The position numbers and the translations under genes are program-made. Below the pieces are notes generated by a model that did no database searches, was not told where the DNA came from, and saw only the letters and a program-made list of their open reading frames with translations. From Propionispira arboris (GTDB lineage: Bacteria; Bacillota; Negativicutes; Selenomonadales; Selenomonadaceae), in assembly GCF_900109225.1 (NCBI RefSeq), contig NZ_FNZK01000028.1:1-33829 (forward strand): a stretch of 33,829 bases of DNA. The letters are read 5' to 3'. The stretch's first letter is position 1. Each line of letters opens with the position of its first letter. This document shows positions 22,600 to 32,761 of the stretch, one piece after another.

Positions 22600-23610
22600 T
22601 TAACAAATTCGTGGAATTTGTACGCCCAACGGCATATCAACAATACGGATACCACCAATATTGGTTTGCAGACCGACCTGGCCTATCGATTCGTTCGTTA
22701 CTTTTCCAATAACGCAGGCATCTTTGCCATAAGGATGCTGATGCATCACGTCAAGTAAAGTTTTCGTGTATTTTGCATCAACAAAAACCAACATTTTACC
22801 TTCATTTGCCAGATACAGTGGATCAAACCCCAGTATTTCACAAACTCCCTGTACTTCCGAACGCACAGGTATGGCATTTTCTTGTAGTAAAATTCCGGTT
22901 TTCGATTGCTCGGCAATTTCATTTAGCGTAGCTGCTACGCCACCACGTGTCGGGTCGCGTAAAGCTGCTATTTGCGGCACAGCTTTGAGCATTTTCTGTA
23001 CCAAACCGTTAAGTGGCGCACAATCACTTTGCAGTGTTGCCGGTAAAACTAATTCATGACGCCCTGCCATAATAGTCGTTGCATGATCACCAATATAGCC
23101 ACTGACAATGACATCACACCCCGGCTTAACACACTTCGGTGAAATATGACTGCCAGATATTATATCACCAATCCCCGCTGTATTGATAAAGATTCCATCT
23201 GCTGCACCTTTATTAACGACTTTCGTATCCCCGGTAACAATTAGCACATTGGCTTCCTTCGCCGCCAGACGCATCGACTCCACAATTTTCCGGAGATCAT
23301 CCATTAAAAATCCCTCTTCCAGAATAAGTCCCACTGAAAGATACCGCGGCACCGCACCAGTCATTGCCAAATCATTAACTGTACCACAAACAGCCAATTT
23401 ACCAATGTTACCACCAGCAAAAAATAAAGGTTTCACAACATATGAATCCGTTGTAAACGCCACATTCGTCCCTGCCATATTTACCGAAGCTCCATCATGT
23501 AACTCATTAAGCAGCGGATTGCCAAATGCCGGTAAGATTACCTGCTCCACTAACTCCTGGCTAAGTTTTCCGCCGCTTCCATGAGCCAAACAAATCTTTT
23601 CATGTTCCAT
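22600..23610 (-). CDS. hypE: Hydrogenase maturation factor HypE
   Basis: HypE dehydrates the carbamoyl group received from HypF on its C-terminal Cys to a thiocyanate, the source of the cyanide ligands of the NiFe site. The 336-residue product has LAHGSGGKLSQELVEQV near the N-terminus, FTTDSYVVKPLFFAGGNIG near 60, ATP-binding DPTRGGVAATLNEIA near 225 and ends in the required Pro-Arg-Ile-Cys. I choose ATG 23610, eight bases after GGGAG, giving a length normal for the family; upstream ATGs extend a frame into hypD and encode sequence unlike HypE. It overlaps the hypD end by about 11 bases and is the last gene of the operon. Confidence 0.95.
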   Translation of the reverse strand: MEHEKICLAHGSGGKLSQELVEQVILPAFGNPLLNELHDGASVNMAGTNVAFTTDSYVVKPLFFAGGNIGKLAVCGTVNDLAMTGAVPRYLSVGLILEEGFLMDDLRKIVESMRLAAKEANVLIVTGDTKVVNKGAADGIFINTAGIGDIISGSHISPKCVKPGCDVIVSGYIGDHATTIMAGRHELVLPATLQSDCAPLNGLVQKMLKAVPQIAALRDPTRGGVAATLNEIAEQSKTGILLQENAIPVRSEVQGVCEILGFDPLYLANEGKMLVFVDAKYTKTLLDVMHQHPYGKDACVIGKVTNESIGQVGLQTNIGGIRIVDMPLGVQIPRIC

Positions 23611-24706
23611 ACGTATATCTCCCGCTTCCATATTTATACCATGCCGCACAAGATCCTTCAACAGATACCATGCAGGCTCCAATTGGGTGTTCAGGAACGC
23701 AAGCCTTGCCAAACAATTGGCAAGCCGTTGGTTTAATGATGCCGCGCAGTACTTCACCACAACGACAGGCCGTTTTCTTTGCAATGGTTTTTGTTACCAT
23801 CGGCAAAACCACCTGTGCATCAAATGCAGAATATTGCTCTTTCATCCGCAGCCCTGAATCCGGAATCATACCAATCCCCCGCCAGACTGCGTCTGTTGGT
23901 TCATAAACTTCCGACAAAATTTGTCTGGCGGCCGGATTACCATCCGGTTTCACAATTCGCTTATATTCATTTTCTATAGTCGGCTGATCATCATGAATCT
24001 GCCTCGCCAATCGATAAATCGTCCGCAAAATCTCTAACGGTTCAAAACCAGCAACCACTGCTGGCATATGATATGTTTCCGGTAAAAAATCAAACGGTCT
24101 TTCTCCTGTAATAGCACAAACATGACCCGGCAATAAAAAGCCATCAATGTTGACTGCTGGATCTGCCAGTAAAACTTTGAGTGCCGGAGGAACTATTTTA
24201 TGAGAAGACAATAAGAATAAATTCGTCAAATTTTGTTTTTTTGTTGCCAGTACGGTAGCCGCTGCAGTAGGTGCCGTTGTTTCAAAACCAACTGCCAAAA
24301 AAATAATTTTTTTGTGTGGATTTTGTGCCGCTATCGTAAGACTTTCCAATGGTGAATAAACAACTCGAATATCTGCACCAGTCGCTTTTACTTCGCCCAA
24401 GCTTGATGTTGAGCCTGGAACACGCAGCATATCGCCAAATGTAGTCAAAATTACATCTTCGCATCTCGCATAAGCAACCGCTTTATCTATGTATTCGTCC
24501 GGTGTAACGCAAACCGGACAGCCAGGTCCACTCACCAAATCGACCTGTGGTGGCAGTAATTGTCTTATACCCGCCCGAAAAATGGCTACCGTATGTGTAC
24601 CGCAAACTTCCATCAACCGCACTGGTTTCGTAACCAGGCGATCGATCTCACGAATGAGAAACTGTGCCATTTCTTTTGTTTCATTATTATGTTCAGGCAC
24701 TCCCAT
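23600..24706 (-). CDS. hypD: Hydrogenase maturation factor HypD
   Basis: HypD is the iron-sulfur scaffold on which, together with HypC, the Fe(CN)2CO unit is built. The 368-residue protein has the conserved blocks LMEVCGTHTVAIFRAGI near residue 36, SGPGCPVCVTPDEYID near 60 with the CPVC motif, FLAVGFETTAPTAAA near 140, and the C-terminal Cys cluster (CRCGEVLRG, IKPTACQLFGKAC, GACMVSVEGSCAAWY) that binds the 4Fe-4S centre. It overlaps the end of hypC by 14 bases, so both are translated together, as fits a HypC-HypD complex. Confidence 0.96.
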   Translation of the reverse strand: MGVPEHNNETKEMAQFLIREIDRLVTKPVRLMEVCGTHTVAIFRAGIRQLLPPQVDLVSGPGCPVCVTPDEYIDKAVAYARCEDVILTTFGDMLRVPGSTSSLGEVKATGADIRVVYSPLESLTIAAQNPHKKIIFLAVGFETTAPTAAATVLATKKQNLTNLFLLSSHKIVPPALKVLLADPAVNIDGFLLPGHVCAITGERPFDFLPETYHMPAVVAGFEPLEILRTIYRLARQIHDDQPTIENEYKRIVKPDGNPAARQILSEVYEPTDAVWRGIGMIPDSGLRMKEQYSAFDAQVVLPMVTKTIAKKTACRCGEVLRGIIKPTACQLFGKACVPEHPIGACMVSVEGSCAAWYKYGSGRYTYGT

Positions 24707-24911
24707 TCATCTCCCTAAGCAATTGATTTGTCAGAGTGGCTTCCTCTTCATCAATAGCCTGAATTGCAAAACCCGCATGAATCAATACAAAATCACCAAT
24801 TCCCGCTTCTGGCAATAACATAAGACTTACCTGACGTTGAATGCTGTTGACTTCCACAACGGCCATTTGATCTTTTTTATCAATAATTTTTGCTGGTACT
24901 GCCAAGCACAT
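24693..24911 (-). CDS. hypC: Hydrogenase maturation chaperone HypC
   Basis: HypC carries the iron group from HypD to the large-subunit precursor. The 72-residue length and the start MCLAVPAKI, with the essential Cys2, are diagnostic; VEVNSIQRQVSLMLLPE, GDFVLIHAGFAIQAIDEEEA complete the OB-fold chaperone. I use ATG 24911, which has AGGAGG seven bases upstream inside the last codons of hypF; a start eight codons upstream would bury the Cys2 motif. Start-proximal overlap with hypF regulation and a 14-base overlap with hypD indicate coupled translation. Confidence 0.96.
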   Translation of the reverse strand: MCLAVPAKIIDKKDQMAVVEVNSIQRQVSLMLLPEAGIGDFVLIHAGFAIQAIDEEEATLTNQLLREMNGSA

Positions 24912-24912
24912 T

Positions 24913-27150
24913 TTAACGCCTCCTTTCTCGTGCAACCACCGCCTGCCCTAAAGACAATCCTCCATCATTGGGAGGAATTTGTCGATTAAGCAAAACAGTA
25001 AAATCTATTTCCAACATACGAATCACTTGCTGTAATAATGTCATATTTTGAAATACGCCTCCGCTTAAAGCAACCGTTGATACCCCCGTCATTTTATGCA
25101 AACGCCGAATCATCACAACAATTGCATCCGCCATCGTTGTATGAAAAGCTGCTGCTAAATCTCCAATTGCTGCCTGACGATTCGTCAATGCGGCGAAGGT
25201 TGGTCTGAAATCAAGTTCATTTGTCGAAGTAATATCATAAGGTAAAATTTCCCCAACAGCACCATGTGCAGCCATTTCCAGTTCTATGGCCGCCTGCCCT
25301 TCATAATTATTATAGAGCCGTAAGCCTAGAAGTGCCGCAGCTGTATCAAACAGACGTCCAGCACTTGATGATAAGGGGGCATTAATGCCTTTCGCTGTGG
25401 CTTGCAGCAGCAGTTTCCAGCCATTTGGTATATTTTTAATTCGATTGGCTTTATGTGATGAAAAATCCACCCCATAAAGCTCCTGTAAAATCCATACAGC
25501 CTGGCGCCAAGGCTGCCGAACTGCCTTTTCTCCGCCAGGCAGGGGCAAATAGGAACAATGTGCCAAACGCTCATAACTATGGCAGTCTGCCAGCAAAAAT
25601 TCGCCGCCCCATAACGTTCCATCATCACCATACCCCGTACCATCAAAGGCAACCCCGATTACTGGATCGTTAACATTATGCTCGGCAAGAACTGAGACAA
25701 TATGTGCATAATGATGTTGAACCCCCATTGATGGTATAGCAAGTTGTTTGGCATATTTTGTTGATAAATATTCGGGATGCAGATCACAAACGACAACTTC
25801 AGGATCAATACCAAACAAACGCCGATAATGTTCGATCAATTTTTGGTAAGATAACAATGTCTGTTGATTTTCCAAATCACCGATATGTTCACTGACGAAA
25901 GCTTCCCTCCCCTTCGTCAAGCAAAAAGTATTTTTGGCCTCACCACCACAGGCAAGCACAGACAGACCATCTTTATGCAAATGTATAGGTGCTGGCGCGA
26001 ACCCACGGCTGCGCCGCAATAAATAGGGCCGTTTGCGAAATACCCTTACAACTGAGTCATCAACACGGCAATGGATTTCACGATTATGAACTAAAAAATA
26101 ATCCGCAATACCTTTTAATTTTGGATATACCTCATCATCTTTATAAATAATTGGTTCTGCACTTTGATTTCCACTTGTCATGACCCAAACATCATCCGGG
26201 TCCAAAAGCAAGAAATGTACTGGAGCATAAGGAAGCATCACCCCAAGATACGGATTTCCGCCTGCAATATCATCAGCCAAAGTCTCGACTGCTCTTTTTT
26301 GCAATAAAACAATCGGACCAATTGGTCCAGTCAATAAGATCTCTTCTTCTGTTGACAAAAAACAAATTCGGCGAACCGCTTCTATACTACCACACATAAC
26401 AGCAAATGGTTTATCCTCACGAATCTTACGAGTTCTTAAGGATCTAACAGCGAACGAATTTTTTGCATCACAAGCTAAATGATATCCGCCAATTCCTTTA
26501 ACGGCCAAAATTGACCCCTGCTTTATAAACGAATGTGCCATTTTCAATGGATCCGTCACAGCCATTTCATTTCCACTGTGATCTAAAAGTGCATATAACG
26601 GTCCACACTTTTGGCAGGCATTCGGCTGAGCATGAAATCGCCGATCATCCGGATTATCATATTCTGACTGACAGGACTTACACATCAAAAAAGGCTCCAT
26701 CGTTGTCTGCGGACGATCATAGGGAACGTCTTTAATAATCGAATATCGCGGACCGCAATTCGTACAATTTGTGAATGCATAACCAAAACGACGATTTTCC
26801 GGATGACTCAGATCGTGGCGACAGTCTGAACACGTCGCAATATCTGGCGAGATAAAAGTTGCTCTATCAGCAGATGAGATGCTCTCTTTAATTATAAAAG
26901 CCTCGTCTCCCTGCAATGCTATAAAATTAGTTACAATCTCTTCAATTTTAGCCATGGCCGGAGCTTTAACAGGCAAATCTTTCAAAAAATTTTCCAAAGC
27001 AATTTCCGTTCCCTGAATTTCAATCAGAACACCTTGTTCATCATTTAATATCCAGCCATGCAAGCCAAAATTTTTGGCTAAACGATAAACAAAAGGACGA
27101 AAACCTACCCCTTGAACAATACCCTTAACACGAATACCGACCCGCTTCAT
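24913..27150 (-). CDS. hypF: Carbamoyltransferase HypF
   Basis: HypF makes carbamoyl-AMP from carbamoyl phosphate and ATP and transfers the carbamoyl group to HypE. The 745-residue protein has all four parts: an acylphosphatase domain (VKGIVQGVGFRPFVYRLA near residue 10), two C4 zinc fingers (CSDCRHDL...CTNCGPRYSI and CKSCQSEY...CQKCGP) near 110-185, a YrdC-like domain from about 200 (LAVKGIGGYHLACDA), and a Kae1-like domain with HHYAHIVSVLAEH near 470 and GVAFDGTGYGDDGTLWGGEF near 500. ATG 27150 overlaps the protease stop (ATGA); a start 15 codons upstream lies inside that gene. Confidence 0.96.
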   Translation of the reverse strand: MKRVGIRVKGIVQGVGFRPFVYRLAKNFGLHGWILNDEQGVLIEIQGTEIALENFLKDLPVKAPAMAKIEEIVTNFIALQGDEAFIIKESISSADRATFISPDIATCSDCRHDLSHPENRRFGYAFTNCTNCGPRYSIIKDVPYDRPQTTMEPFLMCKSCQSEYDNPDDRRFHAQPNACQKCGPLYALLDHSGNEMAVTDPLKMAHSFIKQGSILAVKGIGGYHLACDAKNSFAVRSLRTRKIREDKPFAVMCGSIEAVRRICFLSTEEEILLTGPIGPIVLLQKRAVETLADDIAGGNPYLGVMLPYAPVHFLLLDPDDVWVMTSGNQSAEPIIYKDDEVYPKLKGIADYFLVHNREIHCRVDDSVVRVFRKRPYLLRRSRGFAPAPIHLHKDGLSVLACGGEAKNTFCLTKGREAFVSEHIGDLENQQTLLSYQKLIEHYRRLFGIDPEVVVCDLHPEYLSTKYAKQLAIPSMGVQHHYAHIVSVLAEHNVNDPVIGVAFDGTGYGDDGTLWGGEFLLADCHSYERLAHCSYLPLPGGEKAVRQPWRQAVWILQELYGVDFSSHKANRIKNIPNGWKLLLQATAKGINAPLSSSAGRLFDTAAALLGLRLYNNYEGQAAIELEMAAHGAVGEILPYDITSTNELDFRPTFAALTNRQAAIGDLAAAFHTTMADAIVVMIRRLHKMTGVSTVALSGGVFQNMTLLQQVIRMLEIDFTVLLNRQIPPNDGGLSLGQAVVARERRR

Positions 27151-27647
27151 ACAGTTAGACTTTCTGCTTTCCTTAAAGTAGGGATAATATCCCACTTTTT
27201 CAATTGATCCAAAACAATTTCAATGGTCTTATCGACAACTGCATCCATTTCCGGAGTCATTTCTATTCCGGGAGAAACAACAAATGGCTGCACTCCCATA
27301 ACAATAACCTCATCAATTGGTTCATCTACCACTTGCAATGCAGACAATACATCTTGAATTCCCAATTCATGCATGGATATCTTTTCTTGAAAATACGCTT
27401 GTACCTGATTACCGGTAAAAAAGAAAAAATCCCCCGGTTTTCCATTGCCATTGATTGCATCAATAACGAGCATTTTTTTCGATCCACTAACAAAACGCAT
27501 CAATTCCAGCCCGAGTGTACCACCATCTAAAAGCTGTACTTGTTCTGGAAATTCATAACGCTTTTGCATTTTATCAATCGTCCATACCCCAAAGCCTTCA
27601 TCTTTCAATATAATATTGCCAATTCCTAACAAGGTAATGTCGCTCAT
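27147..27647 (-). CDS. hyaD: [NiFe]-hydrogenase maturation protease (HyaD/HupD/HybD type)
   Basis: The protease removes the C-terminal tail of the large subunit after nickel is inserted. The 166-residue product shows LLGIGNIILKDEGFGVW near the start with the metal-binding Glu (KDEG), LLDGGTLGLELM near 43, LVIDAINGNGKPGDFFFF near 63 with the second acidic ligand, and SMHELGIQDVLSALQ near 95 with the His ligand. ATG 27647 overlaps the hypB stop as ATGA; a longer frame exists upstream but lies within hypB. Being in the same operon as the hydrogenase it most probably serves that large subunit only. Confidence 0.94.
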   Translation of the reverse strand: MSDITLLGIGNIILKDEGFGVWTIDKMQKRYEFPEQVQLLDGGTLGLELMRFVSGSKKMLVIDAINGNGKPGDFFFFTGNQVQAYFQEKISMHELGIQDVLSALQVVDEPIDEVIVMGVQPFVVSPGIEMTPEMDAVVDKTIEIVLDQLKKWDIIPTLRKAESLTV

Positions 27648-28321
27648 GTTTCCCCCTCCGTACACAACGCTTTTTTCGCCGCTGTTTTGCTGCGCAGCCA
27701 ATCATACCAGGCAAGAAGTCCAGTTTCTTTCTGGCAGGAAACTTCTAGAACATTGATTTGCGGATGAATGCTCGTAATATCATTTTGCGCTGCTGCCATA
27801 TCAAAATTTGTATAAGGCAGGAGGTCTACTTTATTTAATACGACAATAGCAGATTCTTTAAAAATCAACGGGTACTTCAATGGTTTATCATCGCCTTCCG
27901 TGATACTCAAAACCACTGCTTTTGAATCTTCACCTATATTAAATTCTGCTGGACAAACAAGATTACCAACATTTTCAATAATTAACAGGTCTAAATTGAC
28001 TAAATCTAATTTTTGCAATACTTTTTGCACCATCAATGCATCCAGATGGCATCCACCGCTTGTATTGATTTGTATAACTGGTACACCATATTGTGCAATA
28101 CGATCCGCATCTTTTGAAGTAAATAAATCGCCTTCAATAACCGCCATATGTATTTCATCTTTTAGCGCTGCCATGGTTTTTTCTAACAAAGATGTTTTGC
28201 CTGAACCTGGTGAACCCAATAAATTCAGGACAAAAATACCTTCTTTTTTGAACAGAACCTGGTTTTCCATGGCGATCTGATCATTTTTCCCTAAAATATC
28301 TTCCATCACCTGAATTTCCAT
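27644..28321 (-). CDS. hypB: Hydrogenase nickel-incorporation GTPase HypB, lacking the N-terminal CxxCGC site
   Basis: HypB is the GTPase that helps HypA load nickel into the large subunit. In 225 residues it has the P-loop LLGSPGSGKTSLLEKT near 35, VIEGDLFTSKDA near 63, NTSGGCHLDALMVQ near 87 with the Cys-His of the G-domain metal site, IENVGNLVCPAEFNIG near 115, SITEGDDKPLKYP, and NKVDLLPYTNFD near 165. It starts at once with MEIQVMEDILGKND: the N-terminal CxxCGC motif and His-rich stretch seen in other HypB proteins are missing. ATG 28321 shares one base with the hypA stop. Confidence 0.95.
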   Translation of the reverse strand: MEIQVMEDILGKNDQIAMENQVLFKKEGIFVLNLLGSPGSGKTSLLEKTMAALKDEIHMAVIEGDLFTSKDADRIAQYGVPVIQINTSGGCHLDALMVQKVLQKLDLVNLDLLIIENVGNLVCPAEFNIGEDSKAVVLSITEGDDKPLKYPLIFKESAIVVLNKVDLLPYTNFDMAAAQNDITSIHPQINVLEVSCQKETGLLAWYDWLRSKTAAKKALCTEGET

Positions 28322-28662
28322 CACTCTACCTCCAAAAACTCTACTTGAAGTTCTCTCCCCGACACAATTTCCAAATTTGCCGAATCACAATGCGGACACA
28401 AAAATCGATATCGTTCTATCTGGGTCGTGGCATCACAATCTTTGCAATGCCCCATAAGTGGTACTCTATGCAATGTAAGATTTGTACCTTCCGCCAGTGT
28501 CTTTTTTGACAATGCTTCAAAGCAAAATTGCAAAGCATCCGTTTCGACTCCACTCATTTCCCCCAAAAGCAGCTGAATTTTAGTTACCTTCGTTGCCTGA
28601 TTACGTGCTGCATAATCTAAAACAATATCTAAAATCCCCTCTGCTATTGCCATTTCATGCAT
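28321..28662 (-). CDS. hypA: Hydrogenase nickel-incorporation protein HypA
   Basis: HypA is the small nickel carrier that works with HypB. The 113-residue product begins MHEMAIAEGILDIV, with the His2 nickel ligand, has the usual GEMSGVETDALQFCFEAL block near 35, and two CxxC knuckles (GHCKDCDA near 73 and FLCPHCDS near 90) that hold the structural zinc. GGAGG precedes the ATG, immediately after a strong hairpin that separates it from the small metal-domain gene. It is coupled to hypB by a one-base overlap. Confidence 0.95.
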   Translation of the reverse strand: MHEMAIAEGILDIVLDYAARNQATKVTKIQLLLGEMSGVETDALQFCFEALSKKTLAEGTNLTLHRVPLMGHCKDCDATTQIERYRFLCPHCDSANLEIVSGRELQVEFLEVE

Positions 28663-28673
28663 ATAAAACCTCC

Positions 28674-28697
28674 ACAGCCGGGCTTATGCCCGGCTGT
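28674..28697. repeat. Strong GC-rich hairpin next to the hypA ribosome site
   Basis: ACAGCCGGGC (28674-28683) and GCCCGGCTGT (28688-28697) form a perfect ten-base stem with a four-base loop. In minus-strand mRNA the stem is followed directly by the hypA GGAGG. The T run needed for termination exists only on the plus strand, where no gene comes in, so a role in mRNA processing, stability or hypA translation seems more likely than termination. Confidence 0.75.
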
Positions 28698-28702
28698 TCT
28701 TT

Positions 28703-28945
28703 TTAAATAACGGCATCTAACCCATGTTCAGAGAAAATTGCTGTTATTTCTGATAATCTTGTTTTTGCTGGATTATAATCAATCGTCGTTTCGCCATCAT
28801 GGGCATGGATATGTACATGATACACTCCTGGCAGCCCCAATAAAGTACGTTCTACTTCATCCACAGTATCTTCTTTATAGCCTTTTACAAAAAACTGAAT
28901 TTTGGTATTACTGCTTTGTGCCGAGCAGCCACATTCCTTACACAT
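28703..28945 (-). CDS. Small protein with N-terminal CxxCGC motif and heavy-metal-associated-like domain
   Basis: An 80-residue protein starts MCKECGC after a good AGGAGG, 21 bases after the cytochrome b gene. Residues 15-80 look like a ferredoxin-like heavy-metal-associated (HMA) fold: a beta strand (KIQFFVKGYK), a helix (VDEVERTLLGLPG), a strand with alternating His (VYHVHIHAHDGE), TTIDYNPAKT and a helix (LSEITAIFSEHGLDAV). The usual HMA CxxC is absent; possible metal ligands are instead the N-terminal Cys residues and the His row. The N-terminus matches the nickel site of HypB proteins such as E. coli MCTTCGC, which HypB lacks here. A nickel carrier for hydrogenase maturation is inferred; no function is established. 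Confidence 0.85.
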   Translation of the reverse strand: MCKECGCSAQSSNTKIQFFVKGYKEDTVDEVERTLLGLPGVYHVHIHAHDGETTIDYNPAKTRLSEITAIFSEHGLDAVI

Positions 28946-28966
28946 AAAATACCTCCTACAACTACA

Positions 28967-29683
28967 TTATTTTACAGTGTCTGTTTTTTTATCAATAATT
29001 TCACCAATATCAACCGGTTCATGACTCAACGCCTTCACCCCGGAAAACATACTCGAAACTTCACCTTCGCCTTCCATAAATTCGGATCTAATTACCATAT
29101 ATACATGACCAATGGCCGATAAAACAATCAACCACGCCACATAATGATGAATCAAGTGAACCGTAAACTCACCACCAACCATTGGATTAATCCAACCAAA
29201 TAAAAAAGCACCCATACCATTTGGATTTACCATCAAATACATAGCAAAGCCCGTTAATATTTCAACCAAAATCATCAAATACAAAGCAACATAAGACATT
29301 CTCGCCAATGAATTACGCAAATATGACTTATGTGTTGGCTGAATCAACATATAATGAAGAGAAACATCCATCATACACAGCCAAAAGCTCTTTTCCCATA
29401 CGCGCGGAAATAAACGATCACCTTTATTTACAATAAAGCCATAAATTTTCAAAATAAAGGAAGCCGTCAACGTAAAGGCTGCTAAAAAATGTATATTGCG
29501 GATCATATTCAATGACAAAACCATAGCACCAAAAGTTGGTTCTCCATTTACACCACCCGATATCGGTTTAGTAATATATAATCCAGTGAAAAAAAGAGTA
29601 ATAATACAAAGTACCATAATCCAGTGAAAAATACGTAAAAATGGGCTAAATATATAATATACCTTTCGATAATTTTCACTCAT
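28967..29683 (-). CDS. hyaC: Ni/Fe-hydrogenase cytochrome b subunit
   Basis: This 238-residue membrane protein anchors the hydrogenase and passes its electrons to the quinone pool through b hemes. It has four main hydrophobic helices, with the expected His ligands in FLRIFHWIMVLCI near residue 19, NIHFLAAFTL near 64, and HLIHHYVAWLIVLSAIGHVYMV near 195. A cytosolic loop with LHYMLIQPTHKSY lies in the middle, as in other HyaC/HupC proteins. It follows the large subunit by 79 bases and precedes the small metal-domain gene by 21. Confidence 0.93.
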   Translation of the reverse strand: MSENYRKVYYIFSPFLRIFHWIMVLCIITLFFTGLYITKPISGGVNGEPTFGAMVLSLNMIRNIHFLAAFTLTASFILKIYGFIVNKGDRLFPRVWEKSFWLCMMDVSLHYMLIQPTHKSYLRNSLARMSYVALYLMILVEILTGFAMYLMVNPNGMGAFLFGWINPMVGGEFTVHLIHHYVAWLIVLSAIGHVYMVIRSEFMEGEGEVSSMFSGVKALSHEPVDIGEIIDKKTDTVK

Positions 29684-29762: not shown

Positions 29763-31673
29763 TCATTCGGTTTTTGTTCCAAGATACGGATCGGTCGTTA
29801 CTACCCGCAATTTTTTACCCGCAGCATTATATAAATGCGTTGCACAAGCCATACATGGGTCAAAGGAACGAACTACTTTCAAAATTTCCAATGGTTTATC
29901 AGCAATCTTAACTTTTGTATCCATCATAGCCATTTCATAAGCACCATGACCGGCTTTTCCATCACGTGGGCATGCATTCCAAGTAGTTGGAACAACCGCT
30001 TGATAATTGCTTATTTTCCCATTTTTAATTACAACCCAATGACTCAATGCACCACGTGGTGCTTCATATAGTCCCACACCTTTGCATTCTTTTGGCCAAG
30101 TTGAAGGATCCCATTTTGTCATGTTGGCAACAGCAGTATCACCAGATTTAATATTTTTAACTAATTTATCAAAGAAATATTTACCAATATACGCGTGAAC
30201 CTGCGCTTCCAAACCACGCACCGCCGTCCGTCCGACCATCGTTGTCATCCATACTTCTGGTTTCAGATTCAAGACTTTGGATACAGCTTCAATTTGATCA
30301 ACAATCATTTTTTCGACCCAGGTAGGTTCTGGCAATAAACCTTTTTTCATCTTGGTATATACAATAATATAACGAGCTAGCGGACCAACTTCTGCCATTT
30401 TTCCTCGCCATTTTGGCGTTTTAAGCCAAGAATATTTTCCTTCTTCATCTAATGTTTTCCAATTTGTCTTCGTACCTTCTTTTGGGCCGGTATAATTCGC
30501 TTTTGTTACACCATCCCATGGATGCAAATCTTTTCCTTCTGCATCTGGATATTTATACCAAGAGTGTTCAACCCCCTCATTCAAAACATCCGGATCTGAT
30601 AAATCTTCTGGTTTAAACTCATAGAAAGTCGCTGCTTCTACGCCCTTGGAAAAGTTTTCAACGATACCGTTGGAACGCAGCAACAAGTTTTTGTGGAAGC
30701 TTCCATTGGTCGTTCCTGAAAAAGTATCTTCAGGATAGTCGCCAAAGCCAATAACACGTTCTTTGGCCAAGCCGCCGCCATCGATATAACCTTTTTGCAC
30801 ATACAATTGTCCGATAGCTAAAATATCTGGTACGTAGAAATAATTCACCAAATCTATTGTCGTGTTAATAGAACGATCAACGACTGCAAGTCGCTCCGTG
30901 TTGACTGGTGCATTCATATCATTCATCGAGATCGAACATGACATTCCACCAACTACATAGTGTGGATGTGGATTTTTACCACCAAATACAACATGTGATG
31001 TCACAATGTCACGTTGTTTGTCTAACATTTCCAGATAATGTGCAACTGCCATAAGATGTACTTCTGGCGGCAAAATGTCATAATCAGGATGATCCCACCA
31101 CTGAGCAGCAAAAATACCCAATTGACCGCTTTCAACGATTTTTTTAATTTTATCTTGCATTGCTTTGAAATATACAGTTGTTGACTTTGGAAATTCTTTC
31201 GGATAAGCATTCGTATCAAATTCAACAGGACCTGCAAATGGTAATTTATATGTTTCTAAAATTGTATTTTGTAAAGCTGCCGTTGCCGCTGGATCTGCCT
31301 TTAATGCCGAAACAGGGCTGACCCAGTCCAAGGCATGCAAGTGGTAAAAATGGATCACATGATCTTGTACGGATTGTGAAGCAGCCATGATATTTCTTAT
31401 ATAATTCGCATTACGCGGAATTTCGATTTGCAACGCATCTTCTACTGCGCGTAATGAAGATAACGCATGTGCCGTCGTACATACACCACAAATTCTTTGA
31501 ATAAATGCCCAGGCATCACGTGGATCCCGATCATTCATAATAAGCTCTAATCCGCGCCAGGCTGTGCCGCTGGACAGTGCGTCTTCTACTTTTCCTGTAG
31601 TTTCATCTAGCTTTACCTCTACCCTTAAATGCCCTTCAATACGGGTTACCGGGTCGACTACGACTCGTTTCAT
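29763..31673 (-). CDS. hyaB: [NiFe]-hydrogenase large subunit
   Basis: The 636-residue catalytic subunit binds the NiFe(CN)2CO site. It has the N-terminal DPVTRIEGHLRVEV, the first cysteine motif FIQRICGVCTTAHALSS (Cys62, Cys65 in RICGVC), and the second, DPCMACATH (Cys607, Cys610, His613). Everything after His613 (23 residues) should be removed by the protease. Start ATG 31673 overlaps the small-subunit stop by one base; a TTG one codon earlier is in frame but less likely. Full-length and intact, it belongs to group 1, membrane-bound uptake hydrogenases judging from the Tat-type small subunit and cytochrome b partner; the subgroup is not assigned. Confidence 0.96.
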   Translation of the reverse strand: MKRVVVDPVTRIEGHLRVEVKLDETTGKVEDALSSGTAWRGLELIMNDRDPRDAWAFIQRICGVCTTAHALSSLRAVEDALQIEIPRNANYIRNIMAASQSVQDHVIHFYHLHALDWVSPVSALKADPAATAALQNTILETYKLPFAGPVEFDTNAYPKEFPKSTTVYFKAMQDKIKKIVESGQLGIFAAQWWDHPDYDILPPEVHLMAVAHYLEMLDKQRDIVTSHVVFGGKNPHPHYVVGGMSCSISMNDMNAPVNTERLAVVDRSINTTIDLVNYFYVPDILAIGQLYVQKGYIDGGGLAKERVIGFGDYPEDTFSGTTNGSFHKNLLLRSNGIVENFSKGVEAATFYEFKPEDLSDPDVLNEGVEHSWYKYPDAEGKDLHPWDGVTKANYTGPKEGTKTNWKTLDEEGKYSWLKTPKWRGKMAEVGPLARYIIVYTKMKKGLLPEPTWVEKMIVDQIEAVSKVLNLKPEVWMTTMVGRTAVRGLEAQVHAYIGKYFFDKLVKNIKSGDTAVANMTKWDPSTWPKECKGVGLYEAPRGALSHWVVIKNGKISNYQAVVPTTWNACPRDGKAGHGAYEMAMMDTKVKIADKPLEILKVVRSFDPCMACATHLYNAAGKKLRVVTTDPYLGTKTE

Positions 31674-32761
31674 CAATCCACCTTCTTATCTTCAGGTTTA
31701 TTTCCATCCGCCTGATGTTTTTTCTTTTGTATAACAGATGCAACTGCATGAACTGCTACACCAGCAACAGTCAACCCAGCCACGGCTGCGCCAACTTTAT
31801 CGATATCACCTACTGGTTCATAGGACGGCAGACGGTTATAAAACGGTGCATCATCCCAAAAGTTAGGGTTACTACAACCAATACAACCATGACCTGATTG
31901 AATTGGATAGGACAAACCGTTCCACCATCTCATATTACCACACGAGTTATATGTTTCTGGTCCACGACAGCCCAATTTATATAAACACCAGCCTGCTTTC
32001 GAGCCAGCATCGTCAAATTTTTCCGCAAACATTCCTGCATCAAAAAAAGGACGACGATAACACGTATCATGAATACGATTCGCAAAAAATTGTTTTGGTC
32101 GGCCTTCACTATCGAGTGGCGGTAATTGACCAAATAATGCATAATGCATAATAACACCCGTCATAACTTCCGGTATTGGTGGGCAGCCTGGAACTTTGAC
32201 AATAGGTTTATTCCCAACCACATCTGTTACACTAACCGATCCAGTCGGATTTGGTTTTGCAGCCTGAATTCCTCCCCAGGTAGCACAAGATCCATATTCA
32301 ATAATAGCTGCTGCATTTTTCGCTACTTCTTTGACCACTTCGACAAAAGGTCTGCCCCCAGTCATGCAGTAAATTCCATTGTCGGCTGTCGCGACGGCAC
32401 CTTCGACTGCTAAAATATATTTTCCCTTAAACTGTTCCATAATTTCATGCAGATGTGCTTCGAATGGTTCCCCTGCGGATGCACTTAGTGCATGGCTGTA
32501 TTCCAAAGAAATCATATTTAATACAACATCTGACGTAAGTGGTGTTTCCGATCTTAAAAATGACTCATCACAACCCGTACATTCATGCCCATGAAGCCAT
32601 ATAACAACCGGTAAAGCATTTTTTTCTGCTGCTGCCACCACGGTTGACAACATATCTGTACTAAGCCCTAAAATACTGGTAAGTGCAACACATGATTTGA
32701 TAAAACTACGACGATTCATGCCCTTTCTCAGGTAGACTTCCCACATTGATTCTCTCTTCAC
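31673..32761 (-). CDS. hyaA: [NiFe]-hydrogenase small subunit, Tat-exported, GTG start
   Basis: The 362-residue subunit holds the electron-transfer iron-sulfur clusters. A twin-arginine signal, MNRRSFIKSC, begins near residue 15 with a hydrophobic stretch after it, so the enzyme works outside the cytoplasmic membrane. Cluster ligands appear in order: WLHGHECTGCDESF (Cys61, Cys64), EYGSCATWGGIQAA, VPGCPPIPEVMTG, LGCRGPETYNSCGNMRWW, and GHGCIGCSNPNFWDD. A hydrophobic helix near 330 followed by a Lys-rich tail is the membrane anchor. The start is GTG 32761 with AGGAGG six bases upstream. It opens the operon. Confidence 0.95.
   Translation of the reverse strand: MKRESMWEVYLRKGMNRRSFIKSCVALTSILGLSTDMLSTVVAAAEKNALPVVIWLHGHECTGCDESFLRSETPLTSDVVLNMISLEYSHALSASAGEPFEAHLHEIMEQFKGKYILAVEGAVATADNGIYCMTGGRPFVEVVKEVAKNAAAIIEYGSCATWGGIQAAKPNPTGSVSVTDVVGNKPIVKVPGCPPIPEVMTGVIMHYALFGQLPPLDSEGRPKQFFANRIHDTCYRRPFFDAGMFAEKFDDAGSKAGWCLYKLGCRGPETYNSCGNMRWWNGLSYPIQSGHGCIGCSNPNFWDDAPFYNRLPSYEPVGDIDKVGAAVAGLTVAGVAVHAVASVIQKKKHQADGNKPEDKKVD

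Follow-up and report, generated by a model that had tools for sequence, protein, structure and literature searches.

The HypA/HypB core is accompanied by further nickel binders, among them CooJ and Hpn. According to an excerpt of a review (PMC7055735), His-rich HypB tails and SlyD are also nickel binders beside this core, and the CXXCGC site at the very N-terminus of E. coli HypB, a hydrogenase maturation protein, binds Ni(II) with sub-picomolar affinity. HypB proteins without the N-terminal region are referred to as 'type 1' in an Acetobacterium study, likewise cited from an excerpt (PMC10134865). In the locus described here, a CxxCGC motif is again found at the very N-terminus of a protein linked to hydrogenase maturation, but it stands on a separate HMA-fold protein, for which no homology to E. 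coli HypB is apparent outside the motif. By description, this protein also differs from the His-rich HypB tails, SlyD, CooJ and Hpn, as these carry His-rich stretches rather than a compact set of cysteines and histidines on an HMA fold. Among the matches listed for the PMC literature, no title or abstract start names such a protein. On balance, we favour the view that it is a free-standing metal carrier, likeliest for Ni(II), in [NiFe]-hydrogenase biogenesis in Negativicutes. The family offers a small, testable candidate for the nickel route to HypA/HypB where HypB has no N-terminal nickel site.

The window, by which we mean the whole stretch of DNA analysed (33,829 nucleotides), comes from contig NZ_FNZK01000028.1 of Propionispira arboris (GCF_900109225.1), and all coordinates are positions in it. 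Its minus strand carries a [NiFe]-hydrogenase operon with structural subunits, cytochrome b, the 80-residue protein and hyp genes, transcribed in the order small subunit, large subunit, cytochrome b, 80-residue gene (hereafter the small gene), hypA, hypB, protease, hypF, hypC, hypD and hypE; the order of the last four is repeated in two further loci (L003 and L013). The features are as follows.

31673-32761, minus strand: [NiFe] hydrogenase small subunit (family library match)
29763-31676, minus strand: [NiFe] hydrogenase large subunit (family library match)
28967-29683, minus strand: cytochrome b gene, 21 bases upstream of the small gene (family library match)
28952-28957, minus strand: AGGAGG ribosome-binding site of the small gene (read in the DNA)
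28703-28945, minus strand: 80-residue protein with MCxxCGC and a CxxC-less HMA fold (open reading frame, profiles, alignment, model)
28925-28945, minus strand: MCKECGC motif, residues 1-7 (C2, C5 and C7 invariant in alignment A1)
28799-28819, minus strand: row H43/H45/H47/H49, of which H45, H47 and H49 are general (model and sequence comparison)
28674-28697, no strand assigned: 10-bp hairpin between the small gene and hypA (z -5.8)
28321-28662, minus strand: hypA (family library matches)
27644-28321, minus strand: hypB without N-terminal metal region (start taken at ATG 28321; the listed frame starts at GTG 28324)
27147-27647, minus strand: HyaD/HybD-type hydrogenase maturation protease (start taken at ATG 27647; the listed frame extends to 27701)
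22600-27195, minus strand: hypF, hypC, hypD and hypE in transcription order (named from translations)

The 80-residue protein (MCKECGCSAQSSNTKIQFFVKGYKEDTVDEVERTLLGLPGVYHVHIHAHDGETTIDYNPAKTRLSEITAIFSEHGLDAVI) begins with MCKECGC and thus has the CxxCGC start; its score against the Pfam HMA family (PF00403) is 22.1 bits, below the gathering cut-off of 24.8. In an AF2 model (pLDDT 85), residues 14-79 form an HMA fold, with the order strand-helix-strand-strand-helix-strand of the ferredoxin-like bab-bab fold; the first ten residues are placed poorly (mean 51). The best Foldseek matches to this model are CsoZ and CopZ (6ff1 and 2qif; TM 0.78 and 0.77 by query length), copper chaperones of PF00403 with which the protein would share its fold. 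Unlike them, it has hydrogenase genes as neighbours, an HxHxH row and an N-terminal CxxCGC, and it lacks the MxCxxC metal site: the sequence GYKEDTV stands where HMA domains have GMxCxxC, and CxxC is missing in all 19 rows of alignment A1. The preliminary description, which had placed an 80-residue gene with an MCKECGC start upstream of hypA and had ascribed to its product an HMA-like fold without CxxC, is borne out on both counts. The nearest named relative is found in Propionispira raffinosivorans (class Negativicutes, 96% identity), and a PADLOC search gave no match. Since the genome of the window encodes further HMA proteins, including an 82-residue frame 2.2 kb from a 757-residue one, the 80-residue protein need not be its copper chaperone.

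Alignment A1 comprises 19 sequences with 48-96% identity to its first sequence, and M1, C2, C5, G6, C7, H45 and H47 are invariant in it. Because seven residues are unchanged across this range, the residues shared by the small protein exceed chance, as judged from the alignment. Across 73 distinct CxxC-less sequences, many of them near-copies and including the odd rows L104, L177 and L190, the conserved residue is present in 72 for C7, 68 for H45, 66 for H47 and 62 for H49; the pattern behind these rows fixed C2, C5 and G/H6 beforehand. Position 43 is His in 14 of the 73 and mostly Tyr otherwise. The row of four histidines noted earlier is therefore present in the window, with H45, H47 and H49 recurring in general and H43 not. 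The general candidate metal set would accordingly consist of CxxCGC and HxHxH, one His fewer than first described. [M]CxxCGC together with VHxH is found in 30 of the 30 loci L028-L057.

We envisage that an HMA (CopZ-like) scaffold would have done without its Cu(I)-binding CxxC and would carry the N-terminal CxxCGC and the HxHxH row in its place. Ni(II) may be held by CxxCGC, HxHxH or both at the site of hydrogenase production, and would then be given to HypA, directly or via HypB, so that the protein would fill the role of the E. coli HypB N-terminal site without descending from HypB. Given the sub-picomolar affinity of this E. coli site, nickel is the most plausible metal for the tail of the small protein. 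The identity of the metal, its transfer and the direction of transfer we infer from sequence, fold model, conservation, co-occurrence, operon position, the neighbours of relatives and a natural variant with a leader on HypA, described below. More tentatively, and with some doubt, we consider it possible that a Cu(I)-chaperone scaffold turned Ni(II) carrier represents a new, convergent nickel-delivery family, whose clients would be [NiFe] hydrogenase and, among relatives, further nickel enzymes.

A scan of named genomes yielded 18 loci, all labelled Selenomonadales, relatives or Bacillota. The preliminary description had counted homologues that mostly lie away from hyp genes as evidence against its reading, and half of this picture is indeed seen: hydrogenase and hyp genes adjoin the small gene in five of the 18 loci, and the other 13 revealed neither kind of gene over stretches of 3.7-12.2 kb. 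In a census of 380 genomes of the class, the small-protein family was matched in 214 (E <= 1e-5; this number includes CxxC-bearing relatives) and HypB in 261 (E <= 1e-30), with both in 205, the family alone in 9, HypB alone in 56 and neither in 110 (Fisher p 1e-41, kinship ignored). With the family match absent from 56 of the 261 HypB genomes, the small protein is not found wherever HypB is, and it is not indispensable to some genomes with HypB and hydrogenase.

Within the family of the window (f1, 189 genomes), the small gene was compared with the [NiFe] large subunit: 152 genomes have both, 20 neither, 8 the small gene alone and 9 the hydrogenase alone. The positives include a 38-residue match (G192) and two divergent members (G213 and G214). 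All eight genomes with the small gene alone are less than 90% complete. Of the 28 genomes without large subunit, 8 were identified as the complement of a list. The small gene, HypB and the large subunit are all missing from the 16 genomes of one genus (g3), and likewise from a genome that is 99% complete (G121).

Outside f1, a family match of any type was found in 29 of 56 genomes with a PF14720 hydrogenase small subunit versus 2 of 24 without, and the protein therefore tracks the PF14720-type hydrogenase rather than HypB as such. These 80 genomes are 79 with HypB plus one further genome (G289), and they take in 5 of the 28 genomes of family f35. The 22 genomes with neither belong to f2 (18) and f32 (3), together with G087; among the 49 HypB genomes without family match, 27 have a PF14720 hydrogenase. 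The additional genome, G289, is near-complete and has family members and three PF14720 matches, with no HypB match. A broader model, A2, matched 311 of 398 genomes of the phylum, and we drew no family count from it: beyond the class, its scores reach at most 57 bits among the matches listed, many of them in HMA frames of 700-970 residues, and ten f1 genomes listed by place score 104-130 bits.

Among the matches listed, which include three places from the A2 search, the distance from the small gene to a large-subunit gene is at most 4.5 kb in 77 of 128 genomes and in 24 of 26 genera; hypB lies no farther than 3.5 kb away in 43 of 96 genomes, again among the matches listed. In genus g10, a large-subunit gene was near the small gene in 0 of 44 cases and hypB in 0 of 40 (among the matches listed), despite the presence of HypB and hydrogenase in most of its genomes, and the small protein would need to act in trans there. 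In g18, a large-subunit gene adjoins in one of five listed cases, and in two of its genomes (G229 and G231) the 7 kb read around the small gene contain neither hydrogenase nor hyp genes. The single listed case of g13 is not linked to a large subunit; its small gene lies directly 3' of hypF, apart from the hydrogenase subunits (G217, locus L249, G217:C16). In seven loci of Selenomonadaceae/Quinella type (L005, L006, L008, L011, L015, L018 and L019), the small gene is found apart from hydrogenase genes, between crcB-like or nicotinamidase-like and metallo-hydrolase-like genes, as named mostly by eye.

The arrangement around the small gene also bears on an alternative that we regard as unlikely, in which the protein would be a hydrogenase-specific assembly or redox factor, such as a scaffold or iron carrier, that acts on the structural subunits and is not a nickel donor. 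A strong hairpin separates the small gene from hypA in 19 of 21 measurable gaps, 8 of which come from one genus (24 loci, three without a hypA start); the remaining two gaps measure only 5-6 bases. The sequence of the hairpin varies between genera and its position is constant, with z values from -5.8 to -1.6 in the 11 gaps tested, all but one of which reach -2.8 or below. Several hairpins end in a T run and look terminator-like; that of the window has its T run on the opposite strand. With this hairpin before hypA, the small gene looks like the putative last gene of the structural operon, and the hairpins suggest stepped expression of structural and hyp genes. In genus g15, moreover, the small gene follows the hydrogenase genes, behind cytochrome b, and neither hypA nor hypB was found over the 1.6 kb beyond it in G221, up to the contig end, or over 5.4 kb in G222. 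Among genera g14, g18 and g30, the contig ends soon past the small gene in G220 and G286, and hypA follows it directly in G230. Both the hairpins and g15 are in favour of an assembly factor, as are the PF14720 distribution outside f1 and a relative next to an [FeFe] hydrogenase (L155, below). Against it stand the resemblance of CxxCGC/HxHxH to a metal site, a natural variant of HypA, and divergent relatives whose neighbours have nickel in common, and not hydrogenase.

The variant is found in G129, a genome that is 100% complete and has hydrogenase and HypB, with the small gene absent. Here, the stretch between cytochrome b and hypA reads as MCKECGCGHRERTIHIHS... in frame with HypA, a putative MCKECGC...HIH leader that continues into HypA as MCKECGCGHRERTIHIHSRMRKRRESIVRKEEPK (L135, around position 1054). 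One stretch resembling a ribosome-binding site lies ahead of the leader and a second one within it. In both genomes of genus g11, the gene directly after cytochrome b has MCATCGC followed by a His-rich insert. Together with the genus that has neither the gene nor hydrogenase and with the many HypB-bearing relatives without the small protein, G129, which has the HypA leader only, provides a natural control.

The divergent relatives have various neighbours, which are named by eye where a family match is absent. In L150, the member lies directly 3' of a HypE-like gene, and the cluster also encodes a HypC-HypD protein as well as a protein of the Prismane/CO-dehydrogenase family, read by us as CO dehydrogenase; in L157, a HypE-like gene again precedes the member, and hypF and the cytochrome b of a hydrogenase are found farther away. 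LarC (L146) and a nickel-pincer-dependent isomerase (L147) each adjoin a convergent member, and a further member comes after a solute-binding-protein transporter operon, whose top NCBIfam match, below cut-off, is NikA (L149). In L155 (G289:C99), a group A [FeFe] hydrogenase gene and one resembling cytochrome b precede the member, and CbiM is encoded close by; in L154, an Nramp gene lies about 3 kb away. No nickel gene was found in the stretches read around the members of L152, L153 and L156, and none adjoins the member of L151, where a transporter like that of L149 lies farther on. H45 and H47 are missing in the isomerase-side members (L094 and L095) and in the member beside the HypE-like gene of L157 (L108), which makes a common site less convincing.

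Other relatives combine MCxxCGC with an HMA domain that keeps its CxxC (type A): these are found in f35 (L102, L103, L105, L109 and L111, with CxxC kept in five of five members read) and in L110, L112, L114 and L160. They agree with the small protein in the prefix and the HMA order (e.g. L102, L110 and L114), and differ from it in keeping CxxC and lacking HxHxH. MCxxCGC ahead of a CxxC-bearing HMA domain was seen within the class and once beyond it (L175). The CxxC-bearing relatives are presumably copper proteins; three of them have an HMA frame of 847-851 residues directly downstream, and the four type A loci read adjoin tatA-like or haem-biosynthesis-like genes (by eye). In line with the HMA fold and the unlinked genus g10, these proteins lend some weight to the notion that the small protein is a buffer for copper, zinc or another metal that came to lie in the hydrogenase operon by chance. 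We nevertheless consider this quite improbable, as all rows of A1 lack CxxC, hydrogenase genes are the usual neighbours, the small gene is missing where hydrogenase is missing, and nickel genes adjoin several relatives.

The HypB of the window starts with (M)MEIQVMEDILGKND. It has no CxxCGC at its N-terminus, as the preliminary description had observed, nor any Cys motif in the open frame ahead of this start, and retains the Cys-His and Cys residues of the G domain (GGCHLD and NLVCPA). CxxCGC occurs in 0 of 71 distinct HypB sequences of the class, including those from genomes without the small protein (L086 was unparsed), and in 0 of 45 readable HypB loci of the phylum, with or without it. The latter were drawn from 112 HypB genomes as 29 of the best loci plus 20 with long frames, of which L239-L241 and L243 were unparsed; in two, an unrelated CxxC occurs far ahead of the probable start. 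HypB_prefix_1, a marker of fused forms, matched 0 of 61 phylum genomes and was positive in the E. coli control, and no fusion of MCxxCGC-HMA to a HypB G domain was seen in the HypB loci read; here, they are separate genes. Short HypB is thus ordinary in these lineages and does not testify to a split.

The proposal that an ancestral HypB was split, with its nickel-binding N-terminus now on a gene of its own and a short HypB as the remainder, is therefore rejected as very improbable: for it speak the resemblance of MCKECGC to the E. coli CXXCGC (excerpt of PMC7055735), the proximity to hypA-hypB and a weak match to the HypB N-terminal domain (NCBIfam NF053667, residues 1-60, 16.8 bits versus a cut-off of 30), and against it that no motif-bearing HypB was found, that HypB is short also where the small protein is absent, that the remainder of the protein is HMA, and that MCxxCGC also occurs on CxxC-bearing HMA proteins. 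What holds of the split nickel carrier first described is a free-standing, hydrogenase-linked candidate metal carrier, supported by co-occurrence and nickel-related neighbours; its descent from HypB finds no support. Instead, the protein looks to have been recruited from a copper-chaperone-like ancestor. In the simplest history, an MCxxCGC-HMA protein would have given up CxxC, acquired HxHxH and become established in the hydrogenase operon. In a tree of 88 rows, the type A proteins, plain HMA rows and seven long rows fall on the same side of a weakly supported branch (76/74), and the tree took in five of the seven plain HMA rows sought, with L025 from the window's own genome not among them.

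The genome of the window has one HypB above the family cut-off, and a second HypA (L002, G000:C19:126846-127178). No HypB and no small protein were found in the 3.3 kb read around this second HypA, which lies beside a NuoD-like hydrogenase large subunit (by eye), and the same locus carries a HypC-HypD-like fusion.
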